NCBI GenBank assembly: GCA_011634665.1
Contig: WAEK01000020.1
Span: 384,001 to 448,000 of the forward strand
Direction: 5' to 3'
Length of the DNA stretch: 64,000 nucleotides
Source of the DNA: Mortierella sp. BCC40632
Taxonomy: Eukaryota; Mortierellomycota; Mortierellomycetes; Mortierellales; Mortierellaceae
Both the position numbers and the translations under genes were made by a program. The notes beneath the pieces are model-generated. The model was not told the DNA's origin. It saw only the letters and a list, made by a program, of their open reading frames with translations, and did not search any database. This document shows, piece by piece, positions 3,377 to 63,749 of this stretch (within the stretch, counting starts at the first letter, position 1; each line of letters starts with the position of its first letter).

Positions 3377-4676
3377 GCGGATTGAGGGTTTGAGATCTCT
3401 TTCTATTTACAGACGATTTCAAGCCTTGCAAACTCGTCGAGCCTTTCCCCTTTTCCAGGCATCAGGATGAGCGGAGCACAACGTTGACACTGAAGAATTC
3501 AAAGAGTTTTAGTAAACAGGACAGGCCGCCGTATAATGGCATAGAGTGATGCAGGGAAAACCTTTTCGACGGATTCCAATCAGGAAGGAGAGTGCTAACG
3601 ATATGCTCTCGATCCACAAAGTGATTTTTCGACTCTATTGGAGTTTTCGATTTCGTTGCAGGGGACATTCGTCCTGCCGCAGATTTGCAGATCGGTTGTT
3701 GAGTTTCAGTTGGCAATGGATGCTCAGTTGAAATCAGGATACGAAAGTTTAGGAGCCAAAAGAAGTGGCGGAGCACCGTTGGCGCCGTAGCCAAAGCGAT
3801 TCAGCAAAGACAAGATTAAAGAAGTCTCTGAGTGGGATCGAACTTGAGTGGGTCAAAAAGATGGCTACAGATGGTCTTGACCAGAAGTCTATCAAGACCA
3901 AGCTCCAAGTGGAAAACTGGTCCCTCCTTCAGGTAAACTTGATCCATAACCCCTCTAATTTGCCTAGCTAGAGCCCTGACAGTTTTATCCTTGTCCTGTA
4001 AATTGGTTTTCAATAGCTTGAAGATCAAGAATGTCCCGACATGCTACAGCTATGCCTCCACATATTGTATGTGACATTCGAACTGTTCGTCTATCGCCAC
4101 AAAGCAGGATAGTCTCGTTAGACAATCAGCCCAGTGTTTAGTGTAAAACTTTGAGCGCAAAGGCATGTTCAAGGGTGAGGTCCTTCAGAAACACAGAGCA
4201 CTGCGTTTTTTTTTTGCTTGGCGCACACACACTCCAGTCAAAGGTACGTGTTTGTTTAATGGGTATACTATTTCCCAATTGAGTGCCCTGACTCAATACA
4301 TAGAGTGGTTTTCGTTCATCCTACCAGGAGGGAGGTCGCCTTGAGGCGATGTGAAGAAGGGAGGCGATGTTAGAGCAACAAAAAAATGGATGGATGGTAA
4401 AGACAAGAGAGCACGAGTAAACTCATTCCAAGCAGTGGTGTGCTGTTTTGGGACGAGAGCCATCCGAATGGTAGCCGGGAAGGAAAGCCAATGAGCGAGA
4501 AGGCACAGGTGCGCAAGTTGAGCGAAGAGCGTTTGACACAAACGGATTTTCCTTCTGAGCGAACGAGCAGTCGAGCGAGAAAAAGACTCCGGTCCAAAGA
4601 CCCAAAACCGAGATTTGTTTGTCACGTCATGTCTACGGTCGGTCGACGGTCGGTCGGTCGACGGTTGTCTCTCTTT
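3377..4676. other. Spacer with a short open frame; upstream region of the WW gene
   Basis: A short + frame at 3765-3971 encodes a basic, helical-looking peptide. It may continue across a possible intron (donor near 3932, acceptor near 4016), but it ends after about 30 more residues. It may be the tail of the relic before it. The rest of the interval has no coding signal that I can defend. The last few hundred bases up to the CT tract probably hold the promoter of the WW-domain gene. Confidence 0.3.
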
Positions 4677-4750
4677 TTCTCTCTCTCTCTCTCTCTCTCT
4701 CTTTCGCTCTCTCTTTTTCTCTCTCGCTCCCTCGCTCCCTCTCTCACTCT
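4677..4750. repeat. CT-rich microsatellite in the WW gene's 5' region
   Basis: Imperfect (CT)n/(CTTT) tract about 110-180 bases upstream of the WW-protein start codon. It lies in the presumed promoter/5' UTR, where pyrimidine-rich stretches are common in fungal genes. It creates a long artificial Ser/Leu reading frame that is not a gene. Confidence 0.8.
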
Positions 4751-4858
4751 CCATCCAGCTATCCATCTTGTTTCCTCTTCAGTAACATCGACCCCATCTT
4801 TTTATCCTCTTCTGCAACATCCCATCTCTTCATTTCCTCCATCCTCATTTAATTCGTC

Positions 4859-5643
4859 ATGGGTTGTTCAAGCTCCAAAGGCATCGACAGTGGGACGACT
4901 CACCCTCCTCAGCAACTCCAGTCTCAGCCCCAGCAGGTTCCATACGGTCTTCCCCAGCAATCTCTGCCACCCTCCACCCTTCCCCAAGGATGGTGAGTAT
5001 TCTTCATATTCTCCAGGTCTCTCTCTCTCTCTCTCTAAGGCCGTTTTAGGCGTGCACCTTGCTCATACTCTTCCGCTCCGCTGCGCTAGGATTTCTCAAT
5101 ATGACCCCAACAAGCAGCGTCTCTACTACGTCTACCCACAGACTGGACAAGTAACCTGGACGCATCCAATGGGTCCGCAGGCGGACGCACAGGAGATGGA
5201 ACGATTCTATCAAATCCAGAAGCAACAACAACAGCAGTATGGAACTCAGAATAAGCATGCCTTCACAGACTCTTACAACCGCCAGGGCGGCATGGGTGCA
5301 GGTGCAGCCATGGCCATGGGCATGGTCGCAGGCAAGTGTCCAAGCAATTGCAGTGACGAGTGTATGAAGACGGAGGTATCCGATAACAAGAATGGGAAGT
5401 GCTAACGGTTTTCGGTTTATTTATTTCATTTCTCTAGGTGGTGCGCTAGGACTAATGGCAGGAGGTATGATGGCCAACAGTGTAGTGAATTCAAGCTTCG
5501 CAGGAGATATTCCTGCCGGGTATGGAAGCGAAATCCCAGTTGGTTATGACTTTGGTAGTGGTGAAATCCCGGCTTCTTATGACTTTGGAGGCGGTGGCGG
5601 CGACTTTTCTGGTGGCGACTTCTCGGGCGGCATGGACTTTTAG
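4859..5643 (+). CDS. Small WW-domain protein with an N-myristoylation signal
   Basis: Model: exons 4859-4992, 5090-5331 and 5438-5643, giving 193 residues. The protein starts MGCSSSK, a textbook N-myristoylation plus palmitoylation signal (Gly2, Cys3), so it probably sits on membranes. A Gln/Pro-rich linker leads into a WW domain at about residues 41-72: L-P-x-G-W, then YYV in the middle, then T-x-W-x-x-P. Intron 1 splits the first WW tryptophan codon. The rest is Gln-rich, then Gly/Ala/Met-rich, ending in Gly-Gly-Asp repeats. WW domains bind proline-rich (PPxY-type) peptides. The Gly/Met-rich tail recalls yeast Wwm1, a metacaspase-interacting WW protein, but the likeness is loose. Intron 2 has a GC donor (gcaagt) with a normal AG acceptor. 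The start is chosen because it gives both the lipidation signal and a complete WW domain after splicing. Confidence 0.82.
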
Positions 5644-6032: not shown

Positions 6033-9000
6033 ATGTCCGATTCTGATCTCAACCTTCAATCGATCGTCTCCATGTTGCAATCCAAGCCCCTCACCTCATC
6101 CAAGGACTCGACCGAATCGCGACCACAAAAGACTGCTCAGTCCGAGGCTACAGTGATTCAGCATCCCCACCTTGTCCCATCCTCGCTCAAAGTAGAGACA
6201 GCCCTCCTGACAAAAGAGCTTGCAAAGTTCCGCCCCTGCGATCTGAACAATTGCTTCTACTGCAGAGAATGGGCGCAATGGGTCTTCAAGAAAACCTTTG
6301 GCAAGGAGAAACAGAGTCCTGGAAGTGGCAGCATCGCGTCGGATAAGAAAGGACGACCTTCTGGAACTAGCAGTAGCGGCAATACCGGAGAGCCTAAAAA
6401 GAAGCACAAAGAATATGCGATGGTTGTCTGCGAACGTTTCTACCAGAGGTCTACTGCGACAGAAAGTGGAAGTAGCGGTTCAGCACGATCTAGTTCTGGT
6501 GGTGCGGGATCGGTTGCAGCAGCAGCCATTGCTGCAAGCAAAGCAAAGACAGGCACAGGATCCGCAGCGGCTTCGGGAGGATCAACGGCTTCTACCAAGA
6601 CTGGTCAGGAAGGATTTGTGTCAGAGATTGTCGACACTGTTCGGGACTGGATTCAACAGCCAAGCGCTCTTTATACCTCGCCTGAGGTCTTTTCACTGGT
6701 CGACTTTGAGGCACTCTATGCTAGCCTACCTCTTGGCACTATTGAGCAACAGTCGCCATCAACACAGGGAACGCAGCAGGATGACGTGACACCGATCTTG
6801 GCGGCGATCACAATCGAGAAGGCGCAGATGGTGCTTGCGCACCAGGGATACCCATTATTGAAGAGGGTCACTAAAGCCCAGTTACAGAACCAGATTATGA
6901 GTCCAACCTGTCTCCACAAAAAGGGAGTGTCCAAGACACCGGCAGATCTTGAGCTTGACAAGGAACTCTTCAATGAGGAACTCAAAAAGATGAGGACGCG
7001 TGATCAGGAAGGTCTTCGAAAACAGATCGGGCCAGTCTGGAAACATGTCGAGGAAGCACTTGAGCGGATGGATGGCGCTGAAAAAGTTCGCTCTGGTATC
7101 TTGTCCCCATCTCGCGCCAAGGAGTTTGCACAGACGTACAAGGATAAACTCTTGACATTCCAGGAGGTATTTGGTCTCTTTTTACTTGACTCGGTTTTCA
7201 TTTGGCGATACCATTCTATTCTTTTTTTTTTTGTCTTTAAAAAGTTGATCTTGAGTTATTAACTTTTTGCTTTGCTTTTCACCTTTATTCGCTTTTTTTT
7301 TTTGGTAGATCTGGAACGAGGTTGAAGCAACAGCCAAAAAGACCTCGACTAAAAAGAAGGGCTCTTCAACGGATAGCGCAGCATTGGACCCAGTGGAGGA
7401 AGTTGACCAGGGGTTCAGACTATTTGTCGACAATATGCAGTTCGTTCACAAGCAACTGGTCTCGGATGTACTTGAATCTTCAGAGAGATCCTTGCGCGAA
7501 TTCATCAAGGAGCTTGCAACTGCTCAAACCAAAATACTCAAACTGGCACTGACACGTATACAGGAAGGAAAAGTTGGAACGGCAAGGATCGACAAGATTC
7601 TGGAAGAGAGTCCTGAAAAGTGTCGTAATGCTCTCAAGATGGTGGAGCAACTCATTCCCATCTTTGACACTAAAATGGCACAGTTCCGAGTTTTGGTTCT
7701 GAACAAGTTCAAGGAAGTTGACGAGGAGGTTGAGGCTGTTGCAGCGACTTTTTGGCAAGAGTCTCAAAAGACTGTGCAGGGTCGACTTGAGAAGGCTGCT
7801 AACAAGGAGTTCAGGAGAAGGATAAAAAAGCTTGAATTCATCTCTGTTGAGACCCGCAAGTGGTTCTTCCAGTCAAGGCTGACTCTTTTCTCAAGTCTTG
7901 ATTTTGCAACCGTTTGTCTCAACACCCTCGGGATCCTTATGGAGGAGGCGGAAGTACTGGAGGCAGTTCAACTTGGATTACATGATGACCATTTCCAGTC
8001 TCGCGTATTAAAATCACAGGAGGGCAGAAAGAAGTTGACACAGCAGTTCCGGGAGGGTATCAAAACGGGACGTCGCGTGTTGGCAGTGATGATTTCTCGA
8101 CTGATGATGCGTGAGGGAGCCCGAGCGATGGGTGAAATGGCAGCTATCCAAAAGGGCAAAAAGTTCCTGAAATCCATCGGACAAGATGTCAGTGATGAGA
8201 AACTGAATGGAAAGGGACTCCTTATTCCAAGTCGTGAGGGTACACCTACGGCTAGTGCCAATGTTTCTGATAACGAGGATGTAGACGATGCGACCAACGG
8301 CCCTACGACAATGAGTAAGAGCAAGAAGAAGAAGGAAAAGAAGAAGAAAAAGGCAGCGGAGGCAGCAGCAGCAGCAGCGACATCTACGGAGACTGGGGCA
8401 TCGGGTTCTCTTCAAGTAGAATCCGAACAGTCGCAGGGAACAGGAGCTAGTCAGGCAACGCCGAACCGTGCCACAAACCTGACAGTTATCGAGGGAGCAG
8501 AGAACGTCATGTCCTCTAAGGAAGCGCGAGAGCTAAAGAAGCAAGCCAAAAAGGATGCTAAGAAACAAGCCAAAGAGGAGGCCGAAGCGGAGGAATTGGC
8601 GAAAGAGCAAGAGGCGGCCAGGAAAGCAGAGGCAGCTAGACGAGCAAAGGAGTTTAAGGAAGCCCAGGAAGCCATGGAGAGACAAGAAGCCCAGGAGTTG
8701 CGAGATAGAGAAATAGCACGGTTGGCTCAGGAGAAGCGAGCGGCCGAGGAAGCTCTGGAGCTTGAACAGGCGAGAAAAAGAAAGGCTGCCGAAGAAGCTG
8801 AAGCCCGACGCAGAGCACAGGAGGCTCGTGAGGTGAAGGAGGCTCTGGACCGTGAACGAGCCAAGGAGGCCAAAGAAACCCGGGAAGCAATCAAGACTGA
8901 AAAGAAAACCACCTCTCATACCAGTACTCCAGCCCGTACGGGTGGTAAAGCCCCCAGTGGCAACAAGAAGGGTGCTTCATCTAATCATGCTCAGGCACCT

Positions 9001-11535
9001 ACTGTTGTGGAGCCCAAGGTACCGACGTGGGGTCCCTCGACATCTTCTCCGATCAGCCGTGCAGAACCAGTTGTTATGGAAGCAGAATCACAGGAGAGCA
9101 AGACAATGGAAACTGAGCCAACTTCGACTTTGTCTCCTTCCGATGGATGGGGAGCTCCACCTGGTAGAAAAAAAGATGAATGGGGAGCTCCGTCTGCCAA
9201 AAAGGAGGATGACTGGGGAACTCCTGCTCCTGCTGCCAAGAAAGAGGATGACTGGGGAACTCCTGCTCCTGCTGCCAAGAAAGAGGATGACTGGGGAACT
9301 CCTGCTCCTGCTGCTAAGAAAGAGGATGAGTGGGGAACTCCTGCTCCTGCTGCTAAGAAAGAGGATGAGTGGGGAACTCCTGCTGCCGAGAAGAAAGATG
9401 GATGGGGAGCTCCACCTGCCAGAAAGGAAGATGGGTGGGGAACTCCTGCTGCCGAGAAGAAGGATGGATGGGGAGCTCCACCTGCCAAAAAGGAAGATGG
9501 GTGGGGAGCTCCGTCTGCCAAAAAAGCGAATGAATGGGGAGCAGCACCAACTAAAAAGGAACACGAGTGGGGAACTTCATCGCCCAAAAAGGAGGAAGGA
9601 TGGGCTGCACCTTCTACAAAGGAAGAGGTGCAGGAGGTCACGTCAACCAGATCGGAAGAGGCACGAAGAGCTGCACCAGCCAAGGCAGCAGACGGATGGG
9701 GCGCTGCAACGTCTACAAAGGAAGACGGATGGAAAGCTGCACCAACCAAGGCGACAGACGGATGGGGAGCGACGACATCTACAAAGAAAGATGGGTGGGG
9801 AGCACCAACCAAGGCTGCAGATGGATGGGGGACTACCCCTATTACTGAGAAAGATCCTTGGGAAGTTGCGATGGCCAATGCAATGGATGAGTGGGGTTCA
9901 GCGCCAGCGCCAGCCAAGGGCAATGCAGATACCAAGCGCACTTCTCCCGTAGACACTAGGAACACCACCCCAGCGGAAGCTTCCAATGCGTGGGGTACTA
10001 AACCAACCATATCGCCAGAGACACGAGGCAAGAAGCCAGCAGGCAGCCCCGATAGCAGCCGAGGCCCTAGACCGGCCCCCGCTTCGAAGGCTTGGGGCAC
10101 CAAGCCGGCCCCGGGTCCTGTATCTGACAACTGGAGATCCAAGCCAACAAACACTGCTGATGGCTGGGATGCTAAGTCAGCACCTGCATCCAACGCCTGG
10201 GGACCTAAGGCCGGAAATGTTATTGACAGCTGGGATGTCAAGTCTGCACCTGTCAATGATGGTTGGGGTTCCAAGCCCACTAGTGCCCCTAATAACTGGA
10301 ACACTCAACCAATCACATCTCAGGAGCCATGGGAAGCTAACCCGTCCATTTTGTCAACGGCCGCACCTCTACCCCCACCTGCTGATTCATCTTCAGTCGA
10401 AAGTGGATGGGGCTCAACTCTCCCTACTGTTTCGAATGGGTGGCCTTCTGCATCCCCACCACACATGTCCTCTGCTCAAGGCGGCGATATGATCAAGGCA
10501 GGACAACATCAGAAGGACTCAAGGGGAGAGACAGAGCCCTTGAAGCCAGTGGCGACTATGACTGGATCCTCACAGGAGCAGGTGTCTGAAGGAAGCGGGG
10601 CTGAGGAATTAGCACGCTTGCCCAAGGAGACGCTTGTTTCATTGGTGAACACGCTTCAGGTCGAGAACAAATCACTCTTGACAACGCTGGTGTCAATGCA
10701 GCAACAGGTTTCGTCCCTGACGGAGCGGTACTCGACTCTTGCGTCTCTAGCACGACAGCATGAACAACAGGCAATCCAAGCGATGGAGGCCCAGAAGCAA
10801 CGTGAGATGGAGGAAGTGCAGCGATATGTGTGGAAGCTGGAGGAGAGATGTCGCCAGCTGGAAAAGCATGTTCTTTCAACACATCGGATGCAAATGCAAC
10901 AGATGCAGCAGTTTCAACAACAACAGCAGCATCAGCAGCAGCATCAACAACAACAACAACAGCAGCAGCAGCAGCAGCAGCAACACATGGGCCCTCCAGG
11001 GATGCCTCCACCAGGATTTAGCAACTTGTTGGGATTGAGTCGTCAAGCCTCGGCGCCCTCTTCACCATCCATGGCACAACGGAGTTTGAATGTCAATGGC
11101 ATGGACCAAATGCCGATGTCTCCTTCTAACGTATCGTCTTCAGCGGCGATGGCGATGATGTACAACAACATGATGTCGACGACCAATGGTGGCGGATTTG
11201 ATTCCGTCCACTCTCCATTGACGGCCAATAGCTCGGCATCGATCCTTTCCTCTGCTCCATCCAACATGTCCTCGCCGCCCTCTGGCTCGATAGGACCACT
11301 GTCGACGGCGGCAACGTCTACCTCGGCCAATGTACAGGGCTCGTCAGGTCCGGGTGGATATGGTGATGCGCCTGGACCCAAGAAGTCGCATTGGCGACAC
11401 CGAGGAGAGGTCCGATGCGGTAATTGCGCACAACAGGGGCATGCCAGTGCCGAGTGCCGGGAGGGATGTCGATACTGTGGTCAGCCAGGACATTTGAGCC
11501 AGGATTGTCCTCGGATGAGTGGTCAACCTATGTAG
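6033..11535 (+). CDS. WG/GW-repeat (Argonaute-hook-like) zinc-knuckle scaffold protein
   Basis: Two exons (6033-7166, 7309-11535) give 1786 residues. The ATG sits in gccaccatg, the best start context in the window. Order of parts: a Cys cluster at C69, C74, C77; a folded-looking helical region to about 690; a Lys-rich stretch then poly-Ala (about 712-735); a long charged coiled coil (about 783-911). Next is a low-complexity region (about 951-1427) with about 27 WG or GW dipeptides in Asp/Glu/Ala/Pro/Lys context, partly in perfect 13-residue repeats. Then a second coiled coil (about 1476-1580), poly-Gln, a Ser/Pro/Met-rich part, and two C-terminal CX2CX4HX4C knuckles starting at C1748 and C1765. 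WG/GW platforms bind Argonaute's tryptophan pockets in GW182, S. pombe Tas3, plant NRPE1/SPT5L and Cryptococcus Gwo1; knuckles bind RNA. I infer a role in small-RNA silencing or mRNPs. I know no family with this exact architecture. Simple repeat expansion without Argonaute binding is the alternative. Confidence 0.85.
9022..10455 (+). repeat. WG/GW-coding repeat block, including 39-bp tandem units
   Basis: Inside the preceding gene. From 9208 a 39-bp unit (codes DDWGTPAPAAKKE or a close variant) repeats at 9208, 9247, 9286, 9325 and 9364, the last one partial. Flanking units are diverged versions in which the Trp-Gly pair is kept while the spacer changes. The first units are nearly identical at DNA level and therefore recent; the later ones (to about 10455) are old, which implies long-term retention of Trp. 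Confidence 0.9.
10912..10985 (+). repeat. CAG/CAA repeat coding for poly-glutamine
   Basis: Mixed CAA/CAG run with occasional CAT codons, about 24 residues long, directly after the second coiled coil of the WG/GW protein. Poly-Q next to a coiled coil is common in proteins that form condensates or P-body-like assemblies. Confidence 0.9.
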
Positions 11536-61801: not shown

Positions 61802-63749
61802 CTACCATCTTTTTTCAAAATCATATCGAAAGAGTAGTTCTTTTTCAGCTCTTCTCGTAGTGCTTTTATCCACGCAGCGTTTATCTCTCACCGCCTCGAG
61901 TCCCTTAAAGATACTGTCCCATTTCTCTGGGGTTGTATTGACGCTTGAGATCGCCTCACGTTCGGGGGTAATATTTCTCATTAAAGTGATCTTGGCCTCT
62001 TCGATGGCCAGCTCTTGTTCTGTGGGTTGGTAGTGGCCATTTCCGATAACCTCGCCTTTGACTTTTGCTACAATCTGTTTCAAAAAAATGCCTTCTCTAA
62101 TTTCTCCAGTTTAATATTAACTTGAGGCTCCACTGGACGATGGGCCTCTTCTCCTTCAGAGATAGGCCACTGACGAAGCCTCTTCTTCAATGCATCAGAG
62201 ATGGTAGGCGTCTTCGCCCAGCAATGCCGGACAGTTGTTGGTTTGATGTGGGTCCACGCATAGGGAATCAACGTCCATGCCTCGCCACTTGAAGGATTTT
62301 TCTTTTTTTCGACCATGCGGGCAATGGATGTACGGCGGGTAAGAGACTTCAGGTAAAAGTGCTTGAAGACAGCAATGATCCCTTGATCAAGCGGCTGTGT
62401 AATAGCAGTAGAGTTGGGAGGGAGTCGTTCGACTCTAAGATGAGTCCAATTCCTTCCCTCGTACCAATTGACTTCTCCATCTTTATGTTGAGGTGCCGAG
62501 TCCATAAGCAGGAGAGTGCTTTTTGTTAGTTGGCTATCAAACTTATCGAGCCATTTTATGAAGGTAGGACTTGTCATCCATCCGCTATCTGTCTTGTGCA
62601 CCGCCATCGGTACTCGTTCGTCGTGAATGATATTCCTAGCAATGTGCTTTTGCTACTCGGTGGTGTTAGCAATTGTTTTAAGACCCAACAATTTGAACTA
62701 TTGCGCACATATTGGCCGGTATGACTTACAAATGATGAGCGGTTGCAGTGAATCCATCTCTTTCTGCTTTAATAGCGACGAGCCCGTTGCGTTAACACAA
62801 AAAACATGGCAGTTACCCTCGAGTTCCTTGCTGGTTTGCTACCAGCTTTAAACTCGGGTGTCGTGAGAGACCGCGTGACAAGCTCTGTCAGATGGAACCC
62901 GCACTCGTCGCAATTGTAGATGTCTTCTGGGTCATATTGGTCACAGATATCTCGAAGCTCTTGAAGCCGAGGCTGGATTGCAGGAACGTCTACGGAGCCT
63001 GCTTGACCATGGAGTTGGACGTATGCAACATCGTATTTCTCTTTGAAAGCCGTGAAAAAAGAACTGGATAGCGATTTGGTATTTTTCAGTGTTTGGTGGC
63101 CATCTTCTCGCAAAATAATTAGAAACAGGTTGCCGGCATCCTTTAAAGACGTTCCGTTGACGGGTAGATTTTGTTTGCGTTGGCAGATGAGCCATTCGTA
63201 AAGAGACTCCATTAGTAGTTCATCTTTTGATTTGACCACATTGAGTGCGCCTGAAGGGAGACGGCGCGAGGCTTCGGATATCTCTTTGTGGTTTCTCAAC
63301 CAAACAGAAAACGTCGTCTGTTTAATGTTGTAAAGCTTGCAAAAGGTTTCTTGACTCCAGGCCCGCAAAGTTTTAGGATCCTCAGAGGCACGCCTGTTGT
63401 GGGCCAGGAACTGGGCCACCAAAGCAGTTTTTTCCTCGAGCGAATATCTAACCTTGGAGGAGGCGTGCGTTGCAGCGGGTACTATGATATCCTGGAGTTG
63501 TCGGTTCTTCTTTGCATCTTCAATCTGCCAAGCAACCAGCTGAGCTCGTCGTTCTTGGAATACACTGAGGTCTGCTTGTGAGAGCTCTTTCTCGCTGACA
63601 GGCGCAAGCGCGCGAGCTCGCTTAGTACTGTAAGATTCGGTCTGCTGTTTTTTGGTCATCTGGTAGCAGATGAGGGTGAGGGGTGATGAAGACTGTTGGG
63701 GATCAATGACAATGAGGGAGGGATGAGAGCACTTATTTCCACCAAACAT
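61802..63749 (-). pseudogene. Broken pogo-type transposase gene
   Basis: Minus-strand pieces: 62769-63749, 62080-62607 and 61802-62083. The first has a helix-turn-helix of CENP-B type (RYSLEEKTALVAQFLAHN, TFSVWLRNHKE), a second Tc5/CENP-B-like DNA-binding part (MESLYEWLICQR...), and the first catalytic Asp in IYNCDECGF. The second piece has LLMDSAPQHK (second Asp) and LPPNSTAITQPLDQG (third Asp). Breaks: a frame change in a run of six A/T near 62803, two in-frame TAG codons between about 62650 and 62700, and another frame change in an A-run near 62085. Two breaks fall in homopolymers, so sequencing error is possible there, but the stops are real decay or G-to-A type mutation. Confidence 0.88.

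Follow-up and report, generated by a model that had tools for sequence, protein, structure and literature searches.

GW182 has UBA and RRM domains together with its Argonaute-binding region, and the plant proteins NRPE1 (a Pol V subunit) and SPT5L/KTF1 carry RNA polymerase largest-subunit and SPT5 core domains, respectively. According to published work, the tryptophans (Trps) of animal Argonaute hooks are ten or more residues apart (PMC9262622), the array of Trp-Gly or Gly-Trp (WG/GW) dipeptides in NRPE1 evolves rapidly through repeat restructuring (Trujillo et al. 2016, as cited in PMC6526901 and PMC7714444), Cryptococcus Gwo1 is complexed with Ago1 at P-bodies (PMC6643885), and Gwo1 and Gwc1 are among the genes lost or changed in C. 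deuterogattii, which lacks RNA interference (RNAi) (PMC4778953). Here, we describe a gene in a 64,000-nucleotide stretch of the Mortierella sp. BCC40632 genome (contig WAEK01000020.1, positions 384,001 to 448,000; referred to as the window). This gene, which has two exons on the plus strand and a single stop at its end, encodes a 1,786-amino-acid (aa) protein with a long WG/GW array. It is a member of a conserved, as yet undescribed family of probable RNA-binding scaffold proteins in early-diverging fungi, and the WG array is a fast-changing, lineage-specific insert in some relatives that is located outside the family core. Judged from the sequences, an Argonaute hook is a plausible lineage-specific addition rather than the core function of the family.

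Like NRPE1 and SPT5L/KTF1, the protein had a disordered WG/GW array, and its Trps were at least 10 residues apart, as in the disordered region of GW182/TNRC6 (PMC9262622). By analogy, the plant NRPE1 Argonaute platform is what the array resembles most closely in evolutionary terms, but the host proteins are unrelated by Pfam (the protein described here has a helical domain, a coiled coil, and CCHC knuckles) and Argonaute binding is only predicted in the fungal case. In fungi, Gwo1 and Gwc1 are GW proteins that belong to the RNAi pathway, and they are likened to the protein by description only.

The array contained 28 Trps with a Gly on at least one side, which confirms the observation in a preliminary description of the gene (about 27 dipeptides over some 470 residues). 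All of these Trps were inside residues 952 to 1423, and they formed 24 WG and 15 GW dipeptides. Shuffles of the array residues yielded 6.1 ± 2.2 Gly-flanked Trps (maximum of 15; n = 2,000). None of the 32 Trp-Trp spacings was below 8, whereas 500 shuffles gave 12.4 such spacings on average; the spacings ranged from 10 to 40 with a median of 11, and most of them were 11 or 13 residues. The array lacked Phe and Tyr, and the flanks of the Trps were small or polar. Thus, reiterated Gly-flanked Trps in a low-complexity region with a spacing of at least 10, which are features of the hook class, were present. At the DNA level, Tandem Repeats Finder rows spanned positions 9142 to 9604 and 9668 to 9830, and 7 of the 33 Trp-centered 33-bp units had another unit that was at least 90% identical (10 of 33 at 80% or more). 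Part of the array is a recent tandem duplication; the array Trps are therefore not independent of each other, although most units have diverged.

The family is defined by a conserved, mostly helical N-terminal half, a part of the protein that the preliminary description did not recognize as a domain. Residues 1 to 670 matched 38 proteins at E values up to 0.001 (7,990 candidates scored), the nearest relative seen being Lunasporangiospora selenospora P0001, with 93% identity across 654 N-terminal columns. A profile built from nine of the 38 homologues listed 21 proteins (7,989 scored), and all 19 that carried an organism label (P0040 and P0042 did not) were from Glomeromycetes. Because this profile failed to list its own Mortierellomycete members, absences from the profile search mean little. 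We take the organisms in the two homologue lists to be Mortierellomycetes, Glomeromycetes, one Umbelopsis, and two Kickxellales. Invariant columns in 28 aligned sequences included L52, K61, R67, C69, Y76, C77, R78, E79, W80, C293, and H295, and C69, C77, C293, and H295 could form a candidate Cys3His-like metal site. No Pfam family reached its cut-off in the N-terminal half. In the AlphaFold model of P0034, a 985-aa Glomeromycete orthologue from Funneliformis (mean pLDDT of 69.5), a long helical domain at approximately residues 223 to 588 was confident, with most blocks near pLDDT 90, and 307 residues were below pLDDT 50. A Foldseek search found no match at E values up to 0.001, and the VIA-align rows for the N-terminal domain were generic helical bundles. 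The lack of a Pfam family and of a clear fold match indicated that this widespread fungal protein is undescribed in those libraries.

We refer to this family as the CREWA-CCHC scaffold family. The protein has the CxYCREWA module, the helical domain, and the coiled coil, as well as C-terminal tandem CCHC knuckles, which are usual, not universal, in the family: a CCHC pair was found in 18 of the 24 distant relatives, a single knuckle in 2, and none in 4. Some of these four are partial records, and both Kickxellales rows are among them. As the preliminary description had reported, the poly-Q tract and both C-terminal CCHC motifs were present, with one of the two motifs exceeding its Pfam cut-off (PF00098). 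The two coiled coils that it had also reported were confirmed in part: besides the helical N-terminal domain, the P0034 model showed one long helix (residues 781 to 864). The start ATG at position 6033 was in a Kozak-like context (GCCACCATG), and the spliced protein was colinear with P0001 over the exon junction, which supports the intron. Exon 1 matched a single place in the 49.9-Mb, 62-contig genome, and the gene is apparently a single-copy orthologue within the family. In Entrophospora (P0050 and P0053 to P0056), the scaffold and a stretch with Pfam accessions that we presume to be Kelch-type were found in one predicted protein, possibly two adjoining genes joined by annotation.

The array had a patchy distribution. 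When traced on a phylogeny of N-terminal domain sequences, the presence of seven or more WG/GW dipeptides changed at least four times, and that of 10 or more Trps changed at least five times. These minima were obtained with a 34-row tree on which P0025 was uncounted and the outgroup branches were very long, and they were identical on a 29-row tree without the outgroups, P0025, and P0030. The approximately unbiased (AU) test rejected array bearers as a single clade (P of 2e-53 for 6 rows and 1e-57 for 11 rows); the groups were chosen after tree inspection, and several deep forks were weak. A median pitch of 11 was also observed in P0001, P0024 (Lobosporangium), P0028 (Entomortierella beljakovae), and P0015 (Mortierella sp. 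GBA43); in all four, the number of Gly-flanked Trps was above that in every shuffle, and the unit sequences differed. Downstream of the P0015 array, which was the longest with 41 Trps, lay an RGRGRG stretch as well as a long Asn-rich region, both absent from the other linkers displayed.

The genome contained at least three Piwi-domain loci, at least one RNA-dependent RNA polymerase (RdRP) locus, at least three Dicer-dimer matches, and at least one CNOT9 (Rcd1) locus, all of these counts being lower bounds. The co-occurrence with Dicer and RdRP genes that the preliminary description had raised was therefore found in the same genome. Three Argonautes were compared to AGO2 at nine Trp-pocket positions. 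The C6:2805k Argonaute was identical at six of them (P590, K660, C691, L694, Y698, and P700), and E695, V591, and F659 were replaced by D, T, and Q, respectively. The C6:2527k locus was identical at four (P590, C691, L694, and P700); F659 and K660 were both replaced by V, E695 by N, and Y698 by F. In the case of the C12 locus, in which an exon join was made by hand within the compared stretch, five positions were identical (P590, C691, L694, Y698, and P700), and both F659 and K660 were replaced by H. We also surveyed 121 rows, namely, the C6:2805k locus and the best 120 of 2,563 matches, a sample biased to close kin. K660 was kept in 120 rows, P590 in 117, and C691 in 119; L694, Y698, and P700 were kept in 120 of 121 (a gap in one row); and position F659 was Phe in none. 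Previous work indicated that GW182 binding is abolished when P733, F802, K803, and E838 of ALG-1 are mutated together (PMC5147811), that C691 and P700 are part of pocket 3 (PMC9262622), and that the TRP3 pocket is distinctly conserved in fungal Argonautes and TRP2 less so (PMC12477606). The loss of F659 in all three Argonautes agrees with what PMC12477606 states about pocket 2.

Because of the spacing and flanks of the array, we consider Argonaute docking its likeliest single function, tentatively and at somewhat less than an even chance. In this reading, the scaffold combines the conserved helical N-terminal domain with a coiled coil that probably forms oligomers and CCHC knuckles that probably hold RNA. 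In some Mortierellomycete lineages, including that of the query, the disordered linker on the N-terminal side of the coiled coil would have grown by tandem duplication into a Trp array with a pitch of about 11 residues. This array would act as a multivalent dock whose Trp pairs insert into pockets on the surface of one or several guide-loaded Argonautes, and the docked Argonautes would be tethered to knuckle-held RNA, perhaps in P-body-like granules. As for the proposal in the preliminary description that the protein is an Argonaute partner, the spacing, the flanks, the RNAi genes, and the six of nine pocket residues agreed with it, and the state of most orthologues, which lacked an array, did not.

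Argonaute docking has a number of results to set against it, beginning with the relatives. For 34 Mortierellomycete rows, including the query, we counted the linker Trps from a VPxWxPS-like anchor up to the coiled coil; the anchor was absent from P0015 and from P0026 (a partial record with 17 Trps). Among the 32 anchored rows, 14 had no linker Trp, 8 had 1 to 3, 6 had 9 to 12, and 4 had more than 20. The P0020 and P0028 counts were inflated by a few downstream Trps because the search pattern misplaced the linker end, P0025 was partial, P0031 to P0033 were shorter (approximately 1,000 aa), and several rows were strains of the same species. No array was found in the 24 distant relatives (P0034 to P0057), each of which had at most two Gly-flanked Trps. 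Hence, WG/GW pairs were not kept across orthologues as would be expected of the Argonaute-hook class. Most of the orthologues seen lacked WG pairs, an outcome that the preliminary description had named as refuting its proposal, so that a function common to the whole family cannot lie in WG binding. In P0028, 1 of 20 spacings was below 8, as were 2 of 40 spacings in P0015. The smaller arrays of P0026, P0027, P0016, and P0023 (median pitches of 15, 13.5, 11, and 11.5, respectively) each had one to two such spacings, and their numbers of Gly-flanked Trps (7, 5, 3, and 3) were no higher than the top shuffle values of 7, 6, 5, and 5. In the query itself, 5 of the 32 spacings were 26 to 40 residues and resembled lost Trp slots. 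On the Argonaute side, K660 was lost in the C6:2527k and C12 Argonautes, and F659 was changed in all three. Moreover, the nine letters were identical in the array-less Mortierella alpina P0061 and Linnemannia gamsii P0063 and in the array-bearing Lunasporangiospora P0068 and E. beljakovae P0072; since the pocket residues are alike with or without an array, nothing ties the array to Argonaute specifically. A 2025 survey also describes the Trp pockets as variable across fungal Argonautes and GW binding as not a common feature (PMC12477606).

The preliminary description had argued that Trps persist while spacers diverge. Between the query and its sister species P0001, 24 of the 27 aligned Trp sites were conserved, compared to 235 of 419 sites with other residues (Fisher P of 0.0005), and in the distal block, 12 of 14 Trp columns matched compared to 116 of 187 other columns. 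The pattern itself was therefore recovered, but this retention test is weak because Trp is generally conserved and aligners reward Trp matches, and the sequences offer hints of, not proof for, selection on Trp. The retention nevertheless speaks against neutral growth of a minisatellite, in which a 33-bp unit expands and decays in a tolerant disordered linker and the Trps are inherited from a seed unit; so do the Gly-flanked Trps at equal pitch, with differing spacers, in P0024, P0028, and P0015. Four neighboring unit pairs with 94 to 100% DNA identity, the four to five or more changes of array state, and the five long spacings are what such growth would leave behind. The first units after the anchor were also similar in several lineages, and several array-less species without Trp had Arg at that site; the common pitch may thus stem from one ancestral 33-bp unit, and expansion of a single common seed and convergence are equally possible. 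The Trps in diverged units are no evidence for selection because the units were picked by their Trps. We consider neutral growth unlikely.

A selected array could also have another target: the Trp pockets of CNOT9 (Rcd1) in CCR4-NOT, other decay factors, or the scaffold itself, condensed by aromatic stickers. Regular aromatic spacing suits sticker-and-spacer condensation, a CNOT9 gene is present, and the independence of the Argonaute pocket residues from the array supports a target other than Argonaute. CNOT9 Trp pockets are named in a reference title in PMC9262622. Gly flanks and a spacing of at least 10 are typical of Argonaute hooks but are compatible with other partners too, and we regard a different target as rather unlikely, behind Argonaute docking and ahead of neutral growth. 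Finally, charged helices, poly-Q, and a WG array give the protein a layout similar to those of GW182, NRPE1, and NST1, a fungal stress protein (PF13945) with a charged, low-complexity layout. However, Pfam searches of the protein at E values up to 1 gave no UBA or RRM match (GW182/TNRC6), no RNA polymerase largest-subunit or SPT5 core match (NRPE1/SPT5L), and no PF13945 match; the genome carries its own NST1 gene at C1:2582848, and the conserved part of the protein is a different, unnamed domain. Orthology to GW182 or NRPE1, or identity with NST1, is accordingly very improbable.

Table 1. Coordinates of the gene and of the protein features in the window
Feature	Positions	Strand	Basis
Exon 1, residues 1-378	6033..7166	+	Open frame, Kozak-like start, phase-0 GT donor at 7167; aligned with 27 relatives
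Family signature around CxYCREWA, residues 52-81	6186..6275	+	Invariant columns, 28 aligned sequences
C293 and H295	6909..6917	+	Invariant in 28 sequences; candidate metal ligands with C69 and C77
Long-helix conserved domain, residues ~300-670	6930..8184	+	AlphaFold model of orthologue P0034
Intron, 142 bases, GT..AG, phase 0	7167..7308	+	Exon-1 frame read through reaches a stop at 7262
Exon 2, residues 379-1786 plus stop	7309..11535	+	
Lys-rich, then charged Lys/Glu/Ala-rich region, residues 714-910	8314..8904	+	Sequence
WG/GW array, residues 952-1423	9028..10443	+	33 Trps, 28 Gly-flanked, median pitch 11
Most repetitive part of array, periods 33, 39, 66, 99 bp	9142..9604	+	Tandem Repeats Finder, unit identities
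Conserved coiled-coil-like helix, residues ~1477-1566	10603..10872	+	Helix 781-864 of orthologue model; alignment conservation
Poly-Q tract	10891..10983	+	Repeat scan, sequence
CCHC knuckle 1, residues 1748-1761	11416..11457	+	Motif
CCHC knuckle 2, residues 1765-1778	11467..11508	+	PF00098, 24.8 bits vs cut-off 20.8

Elsewhere in the window, an upstream frame at positions 4440 to 5405 contained a WW-domain-like stretch slightly below the Pfam cut-off (24.6 bits, cut-off 26.9), and a minus-strand frame at positions 62769 to 63749 had a Tc5-type transposase DNA-binding domain. At G000:C7:1213561-1213815 and its surroundings, a small open frame had a signal-peptide-like start and repeat units that end in KR and have GW-containing cores. 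Its sequence suggests a secreted precursor from which repeat peptides are processed, and the frame has no relation to the scaffold gene.

A broader proposal, drawn by analogy and in our judgment unlikely, is that the linker of this scaffold repeatedly evolves multivalent Argonaute docks with a fixed 11-residue Trp pitch and unrelated spacers; in this fungal counterpart of NRPE1, the tethering of Argonaute to RNA would be gained and lost between genera. If the array does dock Argonaute, related Mortierellomycetes with about 40, 30, 10, and 0 Trps in this protein would form a natural series on hook number, and rapid turnover of Argonaute platforms would occur outside plants too.

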